Source: a virus. From it: a stretch of DNA of 24,448 nucleotides. A model generated the notes under the pieces. That model was not told the origin of the DNA and did no database searches. It saw nothing but the letters and a program-made list of their open reading frames with translations. The stretch spans positions 1 through 24,448 of IMG/VR virus record IMGVR_UViG_3300009008_000241; one strand, 5' to 3'. Positions within the stretch are counted from its first letter, which is position 1. Each line of letters begins with the position of its first letter. The position numbers and the translations under genes are program-made. Of this stretch, positions 7,436 to 23,720 are shown one piece after another.

Positions 7436-8305
7436 TCAAGACGGCAAATCTTCCGTCCTGCTGTTTTGTTGTACATAAGAGCACTTTGCTACACAGTAAG
7501 AATAAGACACATCATATTGCGTAGAATATATACCATATGTTATTTTCATTTTATCATGTTCTGCTCTGCTTTTCACTTGTTTTTTTATTTTATTTAGCAA
7601 GCCGCCATCATTGTCAACCACATCATCAGGTATAGCATAATAATACCTTTTATCTCTAACTTTGTCAAGAGAAAAAAACATTTTTTCTTTTCCGCTTTCA
7701 AAGTCAACGATTCCAAAGGTTTGAATGCGTACTGAAGGGGGCGAATTTGAAAAGGTATCAATGATGGAATCAGAATTTTCAAAGACATTTATCATGTGAT
7801 AGGTTGAAACAACTACCTCATTAATTCTATTGTAATATTCTTTTATGGGCACATCGCCTATTATTTCAGAAACGGTCGCGTTCGAAACAAGATTTATTCT
7901 CTCAAAAACACCAGAACGAGCATATTCTTGCATTACGCCAAACATAAGATTTTCTTGCAGACTTTTCTTCTCGTTTAACAGGCCAAGATCCGGCTTTATA
8001 TAAAGAATGCTTATTTTATTTTTTTTCTTTTTTTTAAGTATTTCCAGAGCGCGCAAACAAAGACCAGATATATCGCCACAACTACTTATAAACAAAATAT
8101 CGCCTTCTATCTTTTTTAAAAAGGGGCGCATTTTAAGGATGGAACAATTTTTTTCATATTCTTCGGGGCCGTCATGAGGCAGAACATTAAGGCAATTCTT
8201 TCCCTTAATTCCTACATCTATCTTATATATTTTATATTGAGAATATTGACTAAATTGGTCCGCCAGATTACACCCGGCGTTTCCTAGTCCTATAATCGAT
8301 TGCAT
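7436..8305 (-). CDS. Divergent FtsZ/tubulin-superfamily protein
   Basis: A 289-residue protein whose landmarks follow the FtsZ/tubulin GTPase fold. Residues 3-13 give strand S1 and loop T1 (I-I-G-L-G-N-A-G-C-N), 25-31 a strand ending in I-D-V like the N-V-D-T region, and 98-106 a strand I-S-I-L-Y-I-K-P-D matching the V-V-T-K-P segment of FtsZ. Then come a long helix (115-130), I-N-L-V-S-N-A-T-V-S-E at 137-147 matching L-I-x-I-P-N-D-x-L-L, and a core-helix-like segment to 175. The phosphate-binding G-box, normally G-G-G-T-G-T-G, reads S74-S-C-G-D-I-S-G81, so GTP hydrolysis may be altered or lost. Phage tubulins such as PhuZ position DNA in infected cells. Start ATG 8305, AGGCGG five bases upstream. 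It lies between the polymerase region and ssb. Fold likely; activity uncertain. Confidence 0.62.
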   Translation of the reverse strand: MQSIIGLGNAGCNLADQFSQYSQYKIYKIDVGIKGKNCLNVLPHDGPEEYEKNCSILKMRPFLKKIEGDILFISSCGDISGLCLRALEILKKKKKNKISILYIKPDLGLLNEKKSLQENLMFGVMQEYARSGVFERINLVSNATVSEIIGDVPIKEYYNRINEVVVSTYHMINVFENSDSIIDTFSNSPPSVRIQTFGIVDFESGKEKMFFSLDKVRDKRYYYAIPDDVVDNDGGLLNKIKKQVKSRAEHDKMKITYGIYSTQYDVSYSYCVAKCSYVQQNSRTEDLPS

Positions 8306-15501: not shown

Positions 15502-18500
15502 CTAGGTTAATAACCTGTATTTGTTTTCTAAATATATTTCTGCTGTTTGGCCTACCACATCACCATCAAGCGTGACCTGTACTATGACCGGCGAGCCCTT
15601 TTTGCCGGCATCGCTGCCTTTGGCGGCGGCGCCTGTGGCACCCAAAACTTTAGCCAGTTTATCAACCAGTCTTTCGAAAGCAGGATTTTCCGCGGCTGCA
15701 ACCTTATTCTCTTGTATAAACTCTGTATAGCGCACCGCCTGATCAACCAATCCTTTGGTGTTTTCGACAACCTCTGGACGAATTGTTTCGGCAGCTTGTG
15801 CTGTTTTTTCCAACGCGAGGCCGGCCTCAACCATTGCAGCAGAGGGCATGTTCTCAAAACCAGTAAAAACACCGGTGAGGGCTGCCATCTTTGCCTCTGG
15901 TATATCCTCCATTTTTGCCAGAACCTCTAGAGTTGTTGACGACGGTAGTTTTTCTATGGCGCCGCCAAGTCGTGTTATCGCGCCGATTATTAAAGTTATG
16001 CTGCTAGCAATTGCGAAGCCTTTATCTCCTATATCCAATATTGTATCAAAGGCTGTTTTTGTACCGGTAGATAAATTTGTACTAGCTGTTCCCAAACCTG
16101 TAAAGATTTTTCCAAGAGACTCTAGTTCTGGACTAATCCATTTTATAGCAGCACCCACGCCAAAGATCGGTATCAGCATTGCCGTTAGGCCAATTGCCAG
16201 TGCGCCTAGGCCAATGGACAGTTTGGCAGAAACAAATGCCATAAGGGCCATGGAACCCGCCAGTGCCCCAACCACAATAGCTGCCTGCCAAGCGTTCGGA
16301 CCCATCTCTGCCAGTCCTCTGGACATTTCACCAACACCCAGCGCAGCGAGAGCAATGGCGCTGCCTATCATGAGAGCAGTTGCACCTATGGCCAATAAGA
16401 TGGGTGCGGCTGGAGTGCCTGCAGCTGCGAGCCCAGCAAGGGCAGTGGCGGCTGCCGTTAAGGCTGGTACCAAAAAGTAAAAAGTGCCAGCCAATATCGC
16501 CACGTTAATGCTCAACGCTAACGCCTCCCAGCCTAGACCTTTCATACCTTCTGCCATTACTCCTATGCCCCATGCGGCAAGTGCGATCCCCGTGCCTATA
16601 CCAATGGCCGCTAATGCTATGCCTGCACCCAGTGCAATGATTTGTACCGCCGACAATGCCGCAACAGCGCCCAGTACGCCAATGGCACCTGATTGGGCGG
16701 TTATAGAGCCGGTAACGGCTGGCCCTTGGGCTATCAGCGCGGTGTTTGCTTTAACCTCTGCACCTTTGCCCATCACAACGCCTTTTTCTGCGCCTGCCAG
16801 TGTAGTGCTTGCACCTGCTTCTGCCATTTTCTCTGCTGTGAGCGTAGCCTCTTGGCCTATCAGCACAGTGTTTTGGCCCATCGCGGTGGCGCTAGCTGCG
16901 TTTTCAGCCAATTGGGCTATAAGTGCAAGTTTTTTACGGGCCAATACAAAGCCCATCACTGCATTAAATGCCCACCACACACCAACAAGGCCGATCATGA
17001 GGGGTATAAAATAGCCACCGGTGGCCTTGTTTATTTCGAATATGGCATCAAAAAAGCCATGGAGAAGATCTAATACCGGTGCTAATGAAACAGCAAACAA
17101 GGTCCACACCTCTTTAAGTTTTTCTGTCATCGTGGTTAAAGACCTTGATGCATCTTCTAATTCTTTTTGGCCGGCTGCGTTTGCTTCTGATTTTGCCAGC
17201 ATCTGATCATAGCCGACAAGGCCTTTGCCAAATAATTTATTCGCCTCATTCATGTCTTGAATTCCAGCAGCTGCAGCTATGGCCTTTCTTTCAAATTTGC
17301 CCATAGATTCCCAGCTTTTTCCGGAAGCTTCAATGCCCTGCAACATTAAACGGATTCTCTCTTCTTCATCAGCTGCCATCATTTCAACGCTGTTTAAATA
17401 GGAGCCGCCCAATATTGCGTTTAGTTTGCCAACCTTGTCGGCAGCATCTTCAAACGTATCAAATTGCGAAAATATACTTAACAGTCTTTGGGTTTCAACG
17501 CCCGTTGCTCTTGCAGCTGCAGCTACTCTTTTAAATATTTGTGGAGCCCTTGAACCGTAAGCAGCGAGAACCGGCATGGCGGCTTTCATCCCCTTGATCA
17601 TTTCGTCAAATGGCATTTTAATCGCCTTTGCGGTACCGAGCAACTCTTTATAAATCTGCTTGGACCTTGTAACGCCCAAGCCTAGACTTTTGGTAAAGTC
17701 GTCGAAAAGCTCACCTGATTCGCCAGTTGCAACCCCTAACTTATCCATCATGGATGTAAAATTAACCAACTCTGTTTGTTGCTCTTTGTTAAGATCATTA
17801 AAATCTTTCATGTTTTTGGATAAATCTATAGTAGCATCTCTTACTGACTCCATCCCGATTATCATGTGGCGTTGAGACTGAAAGCTTTCCATTACTTGAT
17901 TGTCGAATTTACCAAATTGGCTGGTAGCTCTGTCGACGGCGACCGTTGTCTCGTCGAAAGCCTTCATCAAGGCAATGGATTCCTCCTTCACCGCCATGAG
18001 CACTGTACCCATGACATTTGCAGGCGACATTAGCTCCATAAAGCCTGCGGCCATGGCATGCATTGATTTCTTTATGTCTTTTGTTAAAATAATACTACCG
18101 GCAAGAGTATCTTTCCACCTCTCACTAACACCAGTGACCGACTGAAGCCAATCTTGAGTTATTTCATTTGTTTTTTGTGTGGCGGTAATTTGTTCTTTTT
18201 TTGTCGCCAAAATATCATATTCTACTTCTAGTTCAGACTGAAGAACCGTAAGCTGATCGTGTTCTGATTGAAGAATTTCACGTGCTATCTCTGCAGAGTG
18301 ACCCTCTGCAACCAATTTCCTTTCTTCGTTTAATAAGGCGCGTTCGCGAATGTCCAACTCTTCCAATCTGGCGTTGGCCATTTTTTGCTCTTGATCCAGT
18401 CGGCGCGCATCGTGTTCTTGCTCAATTTTAAAAGTCTCTACAATATCGTTTATAAAGCGATATCTTTCCTTTACCATTTCGAGTCTTTGTATTTCATCGC

Positions 18501-18669
18501 TAGCTTCTGTTTGTGCAATTTTAAGCGAATCTGTGCGATTGCGAAGACTATCTTCAAACAGCTGCTTTCTTTCGGTCCAAAGTTTGTTGCCGCGTTCTAT
18601 TTCTTCGTTGTATTCGCGTTGGCGCGCCAGTTCCTCTTCGGTGGGCGGATTATTGTTGTTGTCGGCCAT
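15502..18669 (-). CDS. Tail tape measure protein
   Basis: A 1,055-residue tape measure, which sets tail length and is expelled before DNA during infection. Residues about 30-180 form a long charged coiled coil; 180-550 are mostly helical; there are hydrophobic segments at about 548-585 and a long Ala/Gly/Ile-rich region at about 655-850 typical of the membrane-inserting part; and the C-terminus ends in the short strand motif V-I-V-Q-V-T-L-D-G-D-V-V-G, common to tape measures. By the rule of about 0.15 nm per residue the tail would be about 160 nm long. Start ATG 18669 has AAGGAAAT upstream. It follows the small 112-residue gene by 14 bases and precedes baseplate genes, the standard order. Length, composition and place make this firm. 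Confidence 0.93.
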   Translation of the reverse strand: MADNNNNPPTEEELARQREYNEEIERGNKLWTERKQLFEDSLRNRTDSLKIAQTEASDEIQRLEMVKERYRFINDIVETFKIEQEHDARRLDQEQKMANARLEELDIRERALLNEERKLVAEGHSAEIAREILQSEHDQLTVLQSELEVEYDILATKKEQITATQKTNEITQDWLQSVTGVSERWKDTLAGSIILTKDIKKSMHAMAAGFMELMSPANVMGTVLMAVKEESIALMKAFDETTVAVDRATSQFGKFDNQVMESFQSQRHMIIGMESVRDATIDLSKNMKDFNDLNKEQQTELVNFTSMMDKLGVATGESGELFDDFTKSLGLGVTRSKQIYKELLGTAKAIKMPFDEMIKGMKAAMPVLAAYGSRAPQIFKRVAAAARATGVETQRLLSIFSQFDTFEDAADKVGKLNAILGGSYLNSVEMMAADEEERIRLMLQGIEASGKSWESMGKFERKAIAAAAGIQDMNEANKLFGKGLVGYDQMLAKSEANAAGQKELEDASRSLTTMTEKLKEVWTLFAVSLAPVLDLLHGFFDAIFEINKATGGYFIPLMIGLVGVWWAFNAVMGFVLARKKLALIAQLAENAASATAMGQNTVLIGQEATLTAEKMAEAGASTTLAGAEKGVVMGKGAEVKANTALIAQGPAVTGSITAQSGAIGVLGAVAALSAVQIIALGAGIALAAIGIGTGIALAAWGIGVMAEGMKGLGWEALALSINVAILAGTFYFLVPALTAAATALAGLAAAGTPAAPILLAIGATALMIGSAIALAALGVGEMSRGLAEMGPNAWQAAIVVGALAGSMALMAFVSAKLSIGLGALAIGLTAMLIPIFGVGAAIKWISPELESLGKIFTGLGTASTNLSTGTKTAFDTILDIGDKGFAIASSITLIIGAITRLGGAIEKLPSSTTLEVLAKMEDIPEAKMAALTGVFTGFENMPSAAMVEAGLALEKTAQAAETIRPEVVENTKGLVDQAVRYTEFIQENKVAAAENPAFERLVDKLAKVLGATGAAAKGSDAGKKGSPVIVQVTLDGDVVGQTAEIYLENKYRLLT

Positions 18670-18683
18670 GCATTATAATTTCC

Positions 18684-19022
18684 TTATTTAAATGGCCACT
18701 TAAGGCCAGTTTCTTTTTCGAAATTTTTGACCGCTTTATCTAAATTATATTTAGACTGATATGTTCTGTCGTCTCCGAGTCCATATCTTCTAAAACTCTG
18801 CATGTAACTTTTTTCACCATTCATGGCGTTTGCAAAAGATTTAATTTCCGAAGGGGTGCCACGAACCGAAACAGGCAAGCCGCTTGGTACATCGCCAAGA
18901 AGCCTTCTCATAAGAAGCTTAACTTGGCCAGCGAACATATCGATCCAGCCTTCGTTTAATTCATTTTTTCGGTGTATCCCTAAATCAACGACCATGGGAA
19001 CTAAATCATTATTATCTTCCAT
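18684..19022 (-). CDS. Small conserved tail-region protein, unknown function
   Basis: A 112-residue soluble protein between the tail chaperone frames and the tape measure. It starts at ATG 19022 after AGGAGG. The N-terminal half has basic helices (Q-V-K-L-L-M-R-R-L-L-G) and a P-S-G-L-P-V-S-V-R-G-T-P-S-E-I segment; the second half has E-K-S-Y-M-Q-S-F-R-R-Y-G-L and a C-terminal helix ending in E-T-G-L-K-W-P-F-K. I have no family name for it. The compact aromatic C-terminus and the invariable-looking position suggest a factor bound to the tape measure or used in tail assembly. Confidence 0.8.
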   Translation of the reverse strand: MEDNNDLVPMVVDLGIHRKNELNEGWIDMFAGQVKLLMRRLLGDVPSGLPVSVRGTPSEIKSFANAMNGEKSYMQSFRRYGLGDDRTYQSKYNLDKAVKNFEKETGLKWPFK

Positions 19023-19092: not shown

Positions 19093-19323
19093 TTATCTCG
19101 ATTTCTTTTTCGCCTTTTCATATTCTTTGCGCTCATCTTCAAACTGCTTAATCAATCTTCTGACAAACCATTCTCTTATTAAAATGGGAAGGTTGTATGC
19201 CTCGATAAAGCTCCAGCCGCCATGGTGTTTTAAGACAAAAAATTGTTCATAAACGCTTTCAATATATTGATCATCTAGGCCAAAAAAAGTCCGTCGTAAA
19301 CGGCACCTCCATTTCTTGTTCAT
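19093..19323 (-). CDS. Downstream frame of tail assembly chaperone, probably read by frameshift
   Basis: This frame overlaps the end of the gp26-type chaperone. Its only possible starts are an ATG at 19323 and a TTG at 19362, both without a ribosome site and both in the upstream coding region. Past the overlap it encodes 62 residues (from G-L-D-D-Q-Y-I-E-S) with G-G-W-S-F-I-E-A-Y-N-L-P and a Lys/Glu-rich C-terminal helix. The likely way to express it is a +1 or -2 ribosomal shift on the seven-T run at 19282-19288, giving a fusion of about 346 residues. Position between tube and tape measure is that of the lambda G-GT and Mu-type chaperone pairs, where the shifted product binds the tape measure. 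If translated alone it would be 76 residues. Confidence 0.72.
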   Translation of the reverse strand: MNKKWRCRLRRTFFGLDDQYIESVYEQFFVLKHHGGWSFIEAYNLPILIREWFVRRLIKQFEDERKEYEKAKKKSR

Positions 19324-20134
19324 AGCCGCAATTTTCACAATCAAATGTTTGGCTAAGATCAATGTTTGGGGCTGATTTTGAATAAAATTCTCTAAGGTAT
19401 TTTGAGTCTAGTGCTGGCATGTTTGCTACCAACGTGTTGACTGCTTGCCGGTCTGAATCGCCATTGACAGACTGAATTAAATACCTGCATTGGTCTGTCA
19501 CGTTGCTATCGGGGAGATTATTTTTTGTTCTCTTTTCCATGGATTTCACGATTGCTTTTTCGTCAGCGCTGGTCAGCAGTCTAATTCCAACTTCAGCTTT
19601 GGTTTTCGGCAGCGTGACATAAAATAGGCCATCTCTTTCTTCCGCATCATATTCATCAGAAAAATCTTCGCCATGATTTAGCTCTGCCTCATCTAGATCA
19701 AATTCAAACTGAACCGATTTTGCGCATGCTGGGCACTGGACTCTTGTTTTATAGTCTGCCCCATATCCACTTACTCTAGCTGCTACAACAAGAGCGTTTT
19801 TGTCTCCAACAAGCAAGTCGGCAATTTTAACATTTTTATCGATAATTATATTTTGCAAAAGCCTATCTATTGCAATTCCCTTTCTTAAAAGGGATTTCGA
19901 TGTCAAAATATCTTCATCTTTTGCGGTCATAAACCTAATTTCTATGCTCTCTGCATTGTGCAGTGGATGGCCTTCGGGATAAAACCTGCCCTTGCTTGGC
20001 AATTCAACAAATTCCGTGGGAGTTGCAAAAGAAAAAGATGCAGTGGGATCACTATTTGTTTTATTATTGTCCTGTTCTGTAAAGGCTGTAGGTGGTGGGT
20101 CAGAGTTTATTCTTTTCTCATTTCTTGATGTCAT
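19271..20134 (-). CDS. T4 gp26-type baseplate hub / tail assembly chaperone
   Basis: A 287-residue protein with the family hallmark E-F-V-E-L-P-S-K-G-R-F-Y-P-E-G-H-P-L at about 41-58, as in the T4 baseplate (gp26/gp51) group. It is followed by I-E-I-R-F-M-T-A-K-D-E-D-I-L-T and a hydrophobic helix around 91-110. Cysteine pairs C134-P-A-C137 and C266-E-N-C269 would form a zinc ribbon. The first 35 residues are polar and disordered. T4 members help assemble the hub and are not always in the virion. ATG at 20134 follows AGAGGT. The gene lies between the tube gene (23 bases upstream) and the tape measure, the locus of tail assembly chaperones. The last codons contain the seven-T run, and GGAGG lies 17 bases before it. 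The in-frame TGA stop is reached three codons after the run. Confidence 0.82.
   Translation of the reverse strand: MTSRNEKRINSDPPPTAFTEQDNNKTNSDPTASFSFATPTEFVELPSKGRFYPEGHPLHNAESIEIRFMTAKDEDILTSKSLLRKGIAIDRLLQNIIIDKNVKIADLLVGDKNALVVAARVSGYGADYKTRVQCPACAKSVQFEFDLDEAELNHGEDFSDEYDAEERDGLFYVTLPKTKAEVGIRLLTSADEKAIVKSMEKRTKNNLPDSNVTDQCRYLIQSVNGDSDRQAVNTLVANMPALDSKYLREFYSKSAPNIDLSQTFDCENCGYEQEMEVPFTTDFFWPR
19282..19288 (-). promoter_or_regulatory. Candidate ribosomal frameshift site (seven T)
   Basis: On the minus strand the zero frame reads GAC TTT TTT TGG then CCT AGA TGA. The downstream frame reads ACT TTT TTT GGC. Skipping one base, or slipping back two with Phe tRNA re-pairing on T, joins the two frames just before the stop. 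GGAGG at 19310-19306 could act as an upstream stimulator; the AGA codon after the run is rare in many hosts. No obvious hairpin follows. Confidence 0.65.
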
Positions 20135-20157: not shown

Positions 20158-20706
20158 TTAGGCTAATTCGAACAATCCTGCTCCAGATGATGAAATTAGC
20201 TCTGCCCAGTCATATCTCACGGTCAACTCTAGATCGGTAAGTGCATCCTCTTCATAAGAAAGCTCACTAAATGTAACCTTTCGAAGCCATGCGTTCTTAA
20301 ATGTCCACGTTTCAAGTGCGCCTTCACCGGTTGCGTCAATAATTTCAACGCTAAGTTCTCCCAGTTCTGATATGGCGCTAGCCTTGTCCATTGTAGATAG
20401 GCTGTTCATATCTTTTGGGGGACTATATCCTGCATTTTGAATAATGGTCGACATAACCTCCGCGGCATCAGGGGTGATGGGATCAACCAGTGTGAAGTTC
20501 ACCTCTGACCATTTGACTCGGCCGGGATAATAAAAAGTATGATTAAGATAAGCATGTTCTGCTTCTTGAACCTCTATTTCCGGTCGTGATACTTTTTTAA
20601 CCAACCATTGAATGTTATCAAAGCTGCCTAGCGTCAACACAAATCTAAACGCACGTTTAGGGTCTTGAAGTGGTGCCGACCAAAAATTCGTATTCTTATC
20701 TGCCAT
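20158..20706 (-). CDS. Tail tube protein, T4 gp19-like
   Basis: A 182-residue tail tube monomer that polymerises into hexameric rings inside the sheath; T4 gp19 has 163. Features are the start with N-T-N-F-W-S-A-P-L, the strand pattern F-R-F-V-L-T-L, the segment V-K-K-V-S-R-P-E-I-E-V-Q-E-A-E-H (about 37-52), then Y-Y-P-G-R-V-K-W-S-E-V-N-F-T-L-V-D-P, a helix D-A-A-E-V-M-S-T-I-I, and the closing strand L-E-L-T-V-R-Y-D-W-A. This is the classic layout of the tube/Hcp-like family in T4-type phages. ATG at 20706 follows GAGGAG. It is 53 bases downstream of the sheath gene; sheath-tube pairs are always adjacent in contractile phages. Confidence 0.92.
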   Translation of the reverse strand: MADKNTNFWSAPLQDPKRAFRFVLTLGSFDNIQWLVKKVSRPEIEVQEAEHAYLNHTFYYPGRVKWSEVNFTLVDPITPDAAEVMSTIIQNAGYSPPKDMNSLSTMDKASAISELGELSVEIIDATGEGALETWTFKNAWLRKVTFSELSYEEDALTDLELTVRYDWAELISSSGAGLFELA

Positions 20707-20759: not shown

Positions 20760-23720
20760 CTAGTCCTCAAACGCCGCTCCATCGTTTGTAATTACAAAAT
20801 CAATTGCAATAAATTCAATAGCTTTAGCCGGTTTCAAGAAAATCTTTGCATACATAATATTTCTGTCAACAAGATCCGGTGTAGTGGTTGTTTCATCCAA
20901 CACTATTTTATAATTTTCCAAACCTTGATTGGCTTTAATATTTGCCAAGAATGGCTCCACTTGACCTCTAAATCTTGCCCACGTTGTTCGCGTATTCTGC
21001 GCGAACAATAATCTAGATGCAATTCTAGAAATTTCTTTTTTCACAAGTACCATCAGGCGGCGAACATTAATTCTGTCGAGCGCCGACAATGATGCCTGTA
21101 AAGTTTTCTGGCCAAAAATAACAACTCCTTCCGCCGGGAAAGTGGCAATAGGATTGATATTGTTTTCATATAATTTGTCTCTTTCGCTGGACTTTAGCTT
21201 CTCTCGCGTCTGTACAACCGGCAACCCTGCCGCGCCTTCAGACAAGCCACCTCTGGTGAAGCCGGCGGGTGCGAACCACGCTGCTGAATTGGCCTCGGCA
21301 CTGCCCATGACACCAAGCGCCACAACTGATGGCGGTACCCAAACAAGCGCATTATTCAGTGAGTCGCGAATCTGCACCCACGGATAGTAACAACAGCCAT
21401 AGCTGTTATTCAGCTTTCTCGCTTTAATGTTGGTGACCGCGGTGGAAACGCTACCAAGCCTGTTTTCAGGATCCGATGAGGATTCTGCAGCTGTCTGATA
21501 TCCCGTGTCCAAGTCAATAATCGCTAGTGCGTCCGCTCTGTCCTCGCACGTATCGAGCAATCTAGAGGTTAAGGACTCGTTGTATATACCGGGCATGGCA
21601 GCCAAGTTATATTCAACATCTTCGGGATTTGATATCGTATCAATTGCCCTCTTAATCGTATAATAAGCGTAGCTAGAAAGCTCATTGGAGGCCGCTTTTG
21701 TGGTTGTGTTATTAAAGGGATCTGCCTCTTTAATATTAACACCTTGCGAGCCGCCATGGAACACCGTAGTGAATTGATCAAAACCGGCATCTATAATGTT
21801 TTGATAGCCGCCGCCTGCAGCGTTCTTCGATGTACCATCGTGGTAAGAACCAGAAATGTACCATGCTTTCGCCGGCGAAGAACCTGTGGTGCTACCGCTA
21901 ACATCATCAAGCGTGAAATACCACGATGATTCTACACACGATGTTGAGTCCGTGATGCTTGATGGTAGCGTTCGAACGATATCCTGAACGCTGCGCGCAT
22001 ATCTAGTCTTATTTGCATTCGGAGATGAACCATGTATCGACAAGTCCACACCAAAGAATGTTTTTGTCTCGTCGCCCAGATCCAAATCGGCACTGTTTGA
22101 GCGAAGAGGAATTGTCGGGAAAACAAATGAAGCTGTAACATTTCTATTGTCCCCCCATGTGCCAGAGATGAAGCCATATTGACTTGCTCCTTCGGACACA
22201 CCATATCCACCAACATTTGGTATGTCATCGTGGCCAACCACGAACGTTTGTGCGCTAGCGGAAGTGGCATGCTCCGAGCCAAGAAGAAGGGCAGTTGTTG
22301 AGCCTGTCTGATCGTTAACAGTCACCTGACTACCAGAGCCGATTGATGTAAAGCCTTTAAATCTTGGAGGACCATATACGCCAAATGGTAAACACTCTGC
22401 ATTTATTTTACCGTCAGCAACATCGCCGTTAACTTCGACCCTGACTCTCTTGGATACATTGGGCCAGTCGCCAAACTCGCGTAATCTTTGTTCTGTATCG
22501 TCCCACGTAGTATATTTTGTACCAATTTTTCTTCCAACATAATTAATTGAATTCGGGTTCAAATTACACTGCGTATATCGCTCAATGTTTCGTGGGCGTT
22601 TGTCCGTATCTGACATGCGCCGGATAGATAAAGTGAACGTACCATACGCGTCCACATCTTGATTGGGAGAGGGCTTGATGTCCGAAATGGAAACCTTAAC
22701 ATTGTTTTGGTCCCACGTGCCCGGGCTCAAACACACCAACCTGAAGAGTTTTTGCATGTTTTGTGGATTATATGATGCCGTATCGTTGGTGAGATCCTGT
22801 GAAAAGAACCAACCGGTTCTTGCTTCCTCTGCATCTTTTTGTACAATACCCTTGTTAGCGCTGCCACTCTGCAGGGCCAAAATAACACCGAATTGTTGGC
22901 CGGCACTGGAGCCGGTTACGGTGGCGTTAACATAGTCTTCATACGTCTCGCCAAGCCAATAAGTTTTAGCGGTGCCCTTGGTCACAGTGCTGTTAGTGAG
23001 CGTAGGGTTGGTGTTAAAAACTTTACGAATAAATTTATCAGAATTTATATTAAAGTTAAAGGAGTGATCGACAAAATTTGTTACAGTTCCGTTCGCACCA
23101 CCCGTATCAATTTGAAGTTTGAATTCTTTATCTGCGCCTTGGGTTTGAACCCACGTGGCGGCGCGAGCGGCAGAAACTGCAGCGGCGTTGCCAAATGATT
23201 CGCCGGTTGTACCAGATAGTCTGATGCTTCCGGTTTCCAGATACCACACGGCTGCAAGGGTGCCTGTTAAATTTGATGTTGCGCTGCCGCTATCAATAAT
23301 AAACAAGCCGTATGCACCACCATTAGAGCCAGAGGTGGTGGTGGCGGTGGAATTCGCTGTCTCCCAACCGGCCTCACCTTGATCTGCTGTATAATTTGTG
23401 TGTGCATAACCCAACAATCTCACTATAGTTACTGGGTTGTTGTTTTTTAAGTAGGCTTGTGCAGCATAAGATGCATAAGTGGGCGCTAGTGATTGTCCGT
23501 TTCTCCAAATATCAGTTCCGCCGAGCCCTGCTTCTGGTTCTCCAAAAATTTCTACAAATTCTGAAAACGACTGTACGGTAATCGGCTTCATAGCTGGGCC
23601 GCGGGTTGTGCGTCCGATGATTACTGGACCCATTCGCGCGGGTGCAGATTCGATCTGTGATTGATCGATTTCATCGATGAAAACTCCGGGCGAAACAAAC
23701 TTAAATTTTTTAACAGACAT
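20760..23720 (-). CDS. Tail sheath protein
   Basis: A 986-residue contractile sheath subunit. The N-terminus has the sheath opening (F-V-S-P-G-V-F-I-D-E-I-D at 7-18, then P-V-I-I-G-R-T-T-R-G-P), which forms the strand handed to the neighbouring subunit, then V-Q-S-F-S-E-F-V-E-I-F-G. The C-terminus has the conserved core: R-I-N-V-R-R-L-M-V-L-V-K-K-E-I and A-R-F-R-G-Q-V-E-P-F-L, then the closing I-E-F-I-A-I-D-F-V-I-T. T4 gp18 has 659, so over 300 extra residues fall in the middle (about 110-600), rich in Ser, Thr, Gly and Asn, forming surface domains of the extended tail. ATG at 23720 follows AAGGAG. The 87-base gap upstream holds no recognised promoter. Confidence 0.95.
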   Translation of the reverse strand: MSVKKFKFVSPGVFIDEIDQSQIESAPARMGPVIIGRTTRGPAMKPITVQSFSEFVEIFGEPEAGLGGTDIWRNGQSLAPTYASYAAQAYLKNNNPVTIVRLLGYAHTNYTADQGEAGWETANSTATTTSGSNGGAYGLFIIDSGSATSNLTGTLAAVWYLETGSIRLSGTTGESFGNAAAVSAARAATWVQTQGADKEFKLQIDTGGANGTVTNFVDHSFNFNINSDKFIRKVFNTNPTLTNSTVTKGTAKTYWLGETYEDYVNATVTGSSAGQQFGVILALQSGSANKGIVQKDAEEARTGWFFSQDLTNDTASYNPQNMQKLFRLVCLSPGTWDQNNVKVSISDIKPSPNQDVDAYGTFTLSIRRMSDTDKRPRNIERYTQCNLNPNSINYVGRKIGTKYTTWDDTEQRLREFGDWPNVSKRVRVEVNGDVADGKINAECLPFGVYGPPRFKGFTSIGSGSQVTVNDQTGSTTALLLGSEHATSASAQTFVVGHDDIPNVGGYGVSEGASQYGFISGTWGDNRNVTASFVFPTIPLRSNSADLDLGDETKTFFGVDLSIHGSSPNANKTRYARSVQDIVRTLPSSITDSTSCVESSWYFTLDDVSGSTTGSSPAKAWYISGSYHDGTSKNAAGGGYQNIIDAGFDQFTTVFHGGSQGVNIKEADPFNNTTTKAASNELSSYAYYTIKRAIDTISNPEDVEYNLAAMPGIYNESLTSRLLDTCEDRADALAIIDLDTGYQTAAESSSDPENRLGSVSTAVTNIKARKLNNSYGCCYYPWVQIRDSLNNALVWVPPSVVALGVMGSAEANSAAWFAPAGFTRGGLSEGAAGLPVVQTREKLKSSERDKLYENNINPIATFPAEGVVIFGQKTLQASLSALDRINVRRLMVLVKKEISRIASRLLFAQNTRTTWARFRGQVEPFLANIKANQGLENYKIVLDETTTTPDLVDRNIMYAKIFLKPAKAIEFIAIDFVITNDGAAFED

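Follow-up and report, generated by a model that had tools for sequence, protein, structure and literature searches.

Tail assembly chaperones of the G/GT type were reportedly treated for phage lambda and its relatives by Xu, Hendrix and Duda in 2004. For T4-like phages, the tail assembly chaperones are said to have been identified by Vladimirov, Gautam and Davidson in 2022, with frameshifting reportedly kept in several T4-like groups and with T4 itself using genes 26 and 51. In the lambda type, as described in PMC5009743, a small gene lies ahead of the tape measure gene and a C-terminal domain is added to its product through low-level frameshifting near the end of this first gene. The same source gives G-T frameshifting as widely conserved in long-tailed phages ‘except T4’ (PMC5009743), and PMC3004832 cites genetic studies that assign gp26 to the hub of T4. 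A −1 slip at GTTTTT is described for Vandenendeviridae in PMC12846349, where poly-T sites of T4-like phages are also cited. The +1 frameshifts listed in PMC5009743 include those of Listeria phage PSA and the haloarchaeal virus HSTV-2, and UUU and CCC are named in the PRFect paper as the next most slippery codons at prfB-type sites (PMC10885494). The latter paper makes no mention of gp26, gp51, baseplate or cyanophage. No report of a +1 slip in the PF12322 family was found by title or abstract opening, in a search from which subscription journals were mostly absent.

Here we describe a phage locus at which, judging from the sequences, a programmed +1 frameshift very probably gives a tail assembly chaperone in two forms, one short and one long. 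The locus resembles lambda G/GT in that a short form and a C-terminal domain would be linked by frameshift, but it differs in direction (+1 in the window, −1 in lambda) and in its proteins, which are of another family (PF12322). With the +1 slip of prfB it shares a slip codon YUU followed by U, whereas the sense codon UGG and not a stop codon occupies the A site, and no Shine-Dalgarno (SD) sequence lies 3 nt upstream. PSA and HSTV-2 resemble it in that a structural or tail gene of a phage slips by +1, but PSA slips on a proline codon in its capsid and tail shaft genes and HSTV-2 is an archaeal virus. T4 gp26 and gp51 are in the same gene family (PF12322, phrog_150), with the difference that T4 has two genes in place of a slip. 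In cyanophages (S-PM2) and jumbo phages (CBB, RaK2, PBECO4, Atu_ph07 and others) a second ORF overlaps the first at the same Phe-Phe, and we propose a fusion there as well; in contrast to the +1 set, where there was no sign of a prfB-like SD element or of RNA structure, that set has a −1 relation, in most representatives an SD-like element and, mainly in the cyanophage type, folded RNA downstream.

Gene neighbourhood and junction

The window, i.e. the whole stretch of 24,448 bases that was analysed, is IMG/VR virus record IMGVR_UViG_3300009008_000241. Its minus strand encodes, in this order, the sheath, the tube, the gp26-type protein, the second frame, a 112-residue ORF and a 1055-residue ORF (Table 1), with the tube gene directly upstream of the gp26-type gene and the long ORF following downstream after the one small ORF. 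The gp26-type protein belongs to PF12322 (T4_baseplate; E 3.6e-17, 63.2 bits with a cut-off of 24.5, residues 44-285), matches phrog_150 ‘baseplate hub’ (E 2.6e-19) and has a zinc-ribbon-like C-terminus. An identical protein is encoded by two IMG/VR contigs (L011, L012). The score of the tube protein against PF06841 was slightly under the Pfam cut-off. For the long ORF no Pfam family was found at E 1 and a single weak PHROG match of unknown function was obtained (E 0.22); by length and place, it is probably the tape measure gene.

Table 1. Features of the tail gene cluster in the window
Feature	Position	Strand	Family match or remark
Tail sheath protein	20760..23720	-	PF17482 E 5e-11; phrog_23 E 6.9e-63
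Tail tube protein, upstream neighbour of the gp26-type gene	20158..20706	-	phrog_4542 E 1.9e-22; phrog_45 E 4.4e-5
gp26-type protein (frame 0), 287 aa, proposed short chaperone (TAC-N, like lambda gpG)	19271..20134	-	PF12322, phrog_150
Slip site TTT TTT T(GG), the T7 run	19282..19288	-	Kept as TTY (TTT/CTT, rarely CTA) TGG in relatives
+1 frame, 62-residue domain GLDDQYIES...KKKSR and stop; proposed TAC-C (like lambda T, T4 gp51 tail, DUF6760)	19093..19281	-	
Frame-0 stop TGA, two codons past TGG	19271..19273	-	
ORF, 112 aa, between chaperone and long ORF; AAAAAGGAGGAG stands before it	18684..19022	-	Without family match
Long ORF, 1055 aa, probable tape measure protein	15502..18669	-	Inferred from length and position

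Some further features of the window were noted. The tail sheath protein is long (986 aa), and the Pfam sheath domains cover its C-terminal part (692-978) only. Between 304 and 9909, the minus strand encodes a DNA methylase (PF01555), RecA (PF00154) and a gp32-like protein (PF08804), and also a family A DNA polymerase (PF00476), represented by its C-terminal part. A 289-aa ORF at 7436-8305 (minus strand), starting MQSIIGLGNAGCNLADQF, has by eye a tubulin/FtsZ-type N-terminus, with no Pfam match at E 0.001.

The first-pass annotation had described a gp26-type frame ending at a T7 run and an overlapping frame of 62 residues, and both were seen on the minus strand. The gp26-type ORF ends with GAC TTT TTT TGG CCT AGA TGA; shifted by one base, the same DNA reads ACT TTT TTT GGC CTA GAT. 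This second frame is open through the T run and then continues for 62 residues (GLDDQYIESVYEQFFVLKHHGGWSFIEAYNLPILIREWFVRRLIKQFEDERKEYEKAKKKSR) to a stop at 19095-19093. Upstream of the run it contains four start-like codons, TTG 19362, TTG 19344, GTG 19338 and ATG 19323, and by eye no SD sequence or ribosome site precedes any of them. On this reading the annotation was right about the missing ribosome sites, but not in giving ATG 19323 and TTG 19362 as the sole starts. T7 runs occur 4 times on the window’s minus strand and 20 times on its plus strand, so that a run alone is unremarkable; the signal lies in conservation.

Conservation of the +1 arrangement

Related virus loci were obtained from scans with the gp26-type protein (P0001; 80 loci, the best 80 of 288), profile A1 (80 loci, the best 80 of at least 600), a Flavobacterium phage protein (80 loci, the best 80 of at least 599) and LR756508 (20 loci). 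Profile A1 consisted of the window and six phage records, and the six phage records in the set were Mel-JY01, LR756508, immuto, GXN1, SP-15 and LIS04. With SP-15 as query only SP-15 itself was matched (L275, left out of the counts); alignment A2 held no stretch that was conserved enough, and profile A3 retrieved only 4 relatives from contigs of bacterial genome assemblies. After the partial matches L384 and L385 had been set aside, 269 loci entered the count, among them the window and the six phage records. L298 was dropped for having no stop in its contig; the remaining 268 loci had 231 distinct junctions, and clustering at 90% identity left 189 representatives. All locus counts were taken over related sequences, uncorrected for phylogeny.

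The second ORF was in the +1 frame in 187 of the 189 representatives and at 229 of the 231 distinct junctions. The two misses, L376 and L381, were excluded from the subsequent +1 tests, and three second ORFs (L152, L337, L383) are incomplete because they end at the sequence edge. Only in L376 and L381 did the second frame have its own start past the first stop, the pattern named beforehand as speaking against a frameshift if the slippery run was also lacking, and one of the two still carries CTT TGG. The second domain of both is out of the +1 frame, carries an N-terminal extension and begins at an ATG that lies 2-5 nt past the stop; the slip codon of L376 is lost (TTC TTG TAT).

The ratio pN/pS was 0.23 in the second frame vs. 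1.07 and 1.84 in the other two frames (7504 of 16653 pairs, those of 60-95% DNA identity, from 183 loci; L002, L004, L006, L007 and L376, which mismatched the pattern, and L381 were outside this set). It was 0.21 and 0.18 in the second frame at stricter identity. These ratios indicate purifying selection in the second frame only, of the three. A sequencing error or a pseudogene, for which nothing speaks beyond the out-of-frame arrangement itself, is practically refuted by this selection and by the recurrence of the arrangement at the 229 junctions.

The junction itself took few forms. Among the 187 representatives we found TTT TTT TGG in 145, TTT CTT TGG in 23, TTC TTT TGG in 11 and TTT CTA TGG in 3, besides five single forms, so that 182 of 187 have TTY (TTT/CTT/CTA) TGG, a conserved slippery sequence. 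A Phe codon ahead of TGG was TTT in all 156 cases, vs. 72.5% TTT among Phe codons elsewhere in these ORFs (p 1.6e-22 by a naive test on sequences that are related); the non-Phe codons at this place were CTT (24) and CTA (3 of 183). In-frame YTT TGG had no other occurrence in the 42,456 codons of these ORFs. The earlier question whether the +1 relation and the T run are conserved can be answered with yes for the former; across the junctions, the conserved element is TTY-(TTT/CTT)-TGG and not the T7 run. The second domain is conserved but has no conserved start, and its frame stays open where the first gene ends, which is the pattern of a frameshifted chaperone pair.

Direction and mechanism of the proposed slip

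The overlap had been put down to a slip of either +1 or −2. When slip pairing was scored at codon 1 or codon 2 with standard anticodons, a mismatch-free +1 slip was possible at 187 of 187 sites and a mismatch-free −2 slip at 171, and we favour +1. At TTT CTT TGG, the slip could occur on TTT (to TTC) or, as in prfB, on CTT (to TTT). A −2 slip as in phage Mu would reach the same frame and give a fusion one residue longer, and the window’s own T7 run is among the 171 sites that allow it. Re-pairing two bases back would nevertheless leave a mismatch at 16 of the 187 sites (11 TTC TTT TGG, 3 TTT CTA TGG, 1 TTT CTA TTC and 1 TTC TTT CGT), and CTT ahead of TGG resembles the slip codon of prfB, which is +1; we consider the −2 slip unlikely. 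Slippage of RNA polymerase on the T7 run would produce mixed mRNAs with no ribosomal slip at all. In its favour, the run has at least 7 T in 145 of 187 representatives, but it has at most 4 T in 40 of 187, which keep the same frame relation, and such slippage is very improbable. As general mechanisms, both were rejected on these 16 mismatched sites and 40 short runs. The site is also not of the prfB type: TGG is in the A site in 182 of 183 cases, and only 4 of 184 +1 loci have an SD-like element 3 nt upstream, as prfB does.

A +1 slip by the ribosome would proceed as follows. Most ribosomes would end at the frame-0 TGA and release the gp26-type protein. A minority would have Phe-tRNA on UUU in the P site (19285-19283), UGG in the A site and T 19282 as the next base. 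In a forward slip by one base, UUU U would become U UUU, the tRNA would re-pair with UUU and GGC would enter the A site. The product would be a fusion of 346 residues ending in the second domain.

Start codons, SD-like elements and RNA structure

Alternatively, the second ORF could be a separate gene, translated by coupling or by reinitiation near the first stop. Some start codon is within reach in 141 of 182 +1 loci, and the exceptions L376 and L381 have an ATG just past the stop, with no SD sequence seen by eye. Moreover, DUF6760 ORFs of bacterial genomes (phyla of an actinobacterial and a Flavobacteriales contig) overlap the preceding ORF as GTGA or ATGA in 15 of 17 readable loci out of 22 analysed by script. 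On the other hand, the conserved core lacks any upstream ATG, GTG or TTG in 34 of 187 representatives, and no start position is common to the group, the commonest being present in 50 of 183 only. Slip codon and frame are conserved, no stop closes the frame at the slip site, and natural fusions of the two domains exist, which makes a separate gene distinctly unlikely. Against the frameshift, a start of the second ORF with an SD-like 4-mer upstream was found in 47 of 187 representatives over the whole open frame and in 45 of 182 within 60 nt of the site; the chance level for start-like codons inside the gene is 11.7% each. For the gp26-type ORF itself, an SD-like 4-mer precedes the most upstream ATG in only 86 of 183 relatives.

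For the +1 slip, possible stimulators were considered. The GGAGG previously noted 17 bases 5′ of the T7 run does lie there, and the motif is common in relatives too: an SD-like 4-mer ends 20-21 nt ahead of the slip codon in about 100 of 184. It codes for a conserved Glu-Val-Pro, and SD sequences are not known to affect frameshifting from so far away. As a frameshift stimulator, GGAGG was rejected on these two grounds. There was no sign of a stimulatory RNA structure downstream in the +1 set, where folding hardly differs from that of shuffled sequences (mean z −0.3 over 184 loci).

The same gene with a proposed −1 site

The −1 set consisted of ten jumbo or large T4-like records, S-PM2, 80 cyanophage-type virus loci (the best 80 of 276) and 10 CBB-type loci, in total 101 loci, 74 of them distinct, with 51 representatives. 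Because the search looked for TTT TTY within the last 40 codons, the first TTT is given in advance; TTT TTY was found in all 101 loci, and a T precedes it in all of them too. All 51 representatives carry a −1 heptamer at the Phe-Phe position of the +1 set (T TTT TTC in 49, T TTT TTT in 2), and their second ORF is in the −1 frame. The codon ahead of the site ends in T in 51 of 51, through eight different codons, with a background of 42%. No start was present within 45 nt in 15 of 51, and an SD-like element lies 8-11 nt upstream in 33 of 51. Downstream folding had a mean z of −2.1 (51 representatives), mainly from the cyanophage type, while the CBB-type was near 0.

The gp51 annotated in S-PM2 is this second ORF. 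Cyanophage gp51 is given as about 20% of the usual length in PMC3037559, which a −1 fusion would explain. In the S-PM2 locus (L180, ~1165-1240), the −1 heptamer is preceded by GGAGGG and followed on its 3′ side by a near-perfect hairpin, with z −4.7 in the IMG/VR copy L211. Hairpin and GGAGGG together look like a complete −1 element.

T4 gp26/gp51, natural fusions and the second domain

Both T4 gp26 and gp51 match PF12322 (8.8e-64 and 3.9e-52) and phrog_150. T4 gp26 ends in GLKEFFELL at the Phe-Phe position, and gp51 runs on past it. No second domain was found behind T4 gene 26, where gene 25 begins. In profile comparisons with hhalign, whose values are probabilities, 11 gp51 sequences (including L189, with only 120 aa) aligned over the length of gp51 and across the junction with 36 in-silico cyanophage fusions (99.0%); against the second domain of the cyanophages by itself the value was 95%. 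The second domain of the window clade (180 sequences) aligned with that of the cyanophages at 82% and with that of the jumbo phages (15 sequences) at 83%; cyanophage and jumbo second domains did not match each other (4.7%). For gp51 and the jumbo phages the values were 31% with the fusion and 1.3% with the domain. Because gp51 compared directly with the window clade gave nothing (0.04% with the fusion, 0.09% with the domain), the link of the window’s second domain to T4 is, on these profiles, indirect. Whole fusions aligned at 99.0% (window-cyanophage), 100% (window-jumbo) and 99.4% (cyanophage-jumbo).

Against family databases, the window’s second domain (P0002) gave phrog_634 at E 0.038, and neither PF20546 (DUF6760) nor phrog_20255 at E 0.01. 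Among 35 relatives, 10 matched PF20546 at E ≤0.01 (best 5.9e-5) and 13 matched phrog_20255. The first-pass annotation had asked whether the two frames are fused in some homologues, and two such cases were found: L388 and L389 have PF12322 (2.5e-9 and 1.4e-8) and DUF6760 (1.5e-6 and 5.5e-5, the latter under the family cut-off) in one ORF, joined in frame at SFF. They came from a search of the phylum of a Flavobacteriales genome, in which 3 of 395 genomes matched; a class-level search for DUF6760 returned 1 of 36 genomes, the starting one. No match was obtained in 14 control genomes.

In the loci L386-L410 (e.g. L395, 1501-2069), DUF6760 ORFs stand behind a zinc-ribbon ORF, and by eye these loci resemble contractile injection systems, with a tube-like ORF upstream. 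The second ORF was in the −1 frame in 17 of 17 readable loci (5 of 22 were unreadable), and the GTGA or ATGA overlap often comes after GGGGGAATC. L400 and L387 have no start at the overlap and contain a G run, which makes a −1 slip possible there. The ORF ahead of the DUF6760 ORF in L395 had no PF12322 match.

As judged from comparison of the relatives, both frames of the window encode conserved proteins, the +1 relation and the slip codon are conserved, the second ORFs have no common start, and fused homologues exist. The original proposal that the pair is made by frameshift is thus supported by the conserved frame, the slip codon, the second protein and the natural fusions. Slippage of the ribosome at the site, its frequency and the chaperone role are inferred.

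Fold and proposed role

The AlphaFold2 model of the frame-0 protein had a pLDDT of 85.2 (24 alignment rows). A Foldseek search with this model gave no significant match (best E 0.76). When Foldseek’s own matches (622 chains) were re-scored by VIA-align, which keeps other folds outside its reach, the best two were YqbN (3klu; Z 4.9, rmsd 3.7, 82 residues), which we take to be linked to tail chaperones, and the HK97 tail assembly chaperone (2ob9; Z 4.8, rmsd 4.0, 94 residues), followed by a next chain at Z 3.5. With Z below 5 these similarities are weak, and the modelled fold offers support for a chaperone and not proof. By sequence, no solved structure was found for gp51, and the gp26-type profile had only three matches (E 0.2-0.4). 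By analogy with lambda gpG/gpGT (PMC5009743), many copies of the short form would coat the tape measure protein, and a rare long copy would bring the tail tube subunit.

Implications for contractile-tail phages

The results support the view that gp26 and gp51, hub proteins of T4, are its tail assembly chaperones, the former short and the latter long; the genetic placement of gp26 in the hub speaks against it. The first-pass annotation had expected the chaperone rule to be newly extended to T4-type phages, but the general rule was reportedly known since 2022. What looks new is the +1 variant, together with the change of slip direction.

Frameshifts of +1 without a stop codon or a stimulatory element are unusual. 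On balance, and with some reserve, we favour a broader reading, in which a +1 slip on sense codons (YUU-UGG, with no stop, SD or RNA structure seen) is kept across a large group of contractile-tail phages. Homologous genes would have moved among a +1 slip, a −1 slip, fusion in frame, duplication as in T4 gp26/gp51, and starts of their own, while in phage genes and fusions the two domains would still meet at the one Phe-Phe position. A PF12322-like protein together with DUF6760 may serve bacterial contractile injection systems. The site would then be a +1 slip site that apparently needs neither a stop codon nor a stimulatory element, and slip direction would vary inside one gene family with the protein layout unchanged. 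For annotation, this means that in some records the second domain appears as a separate gene (S-PM2) or is missing or partial (GXN1, LIS04, immuto).
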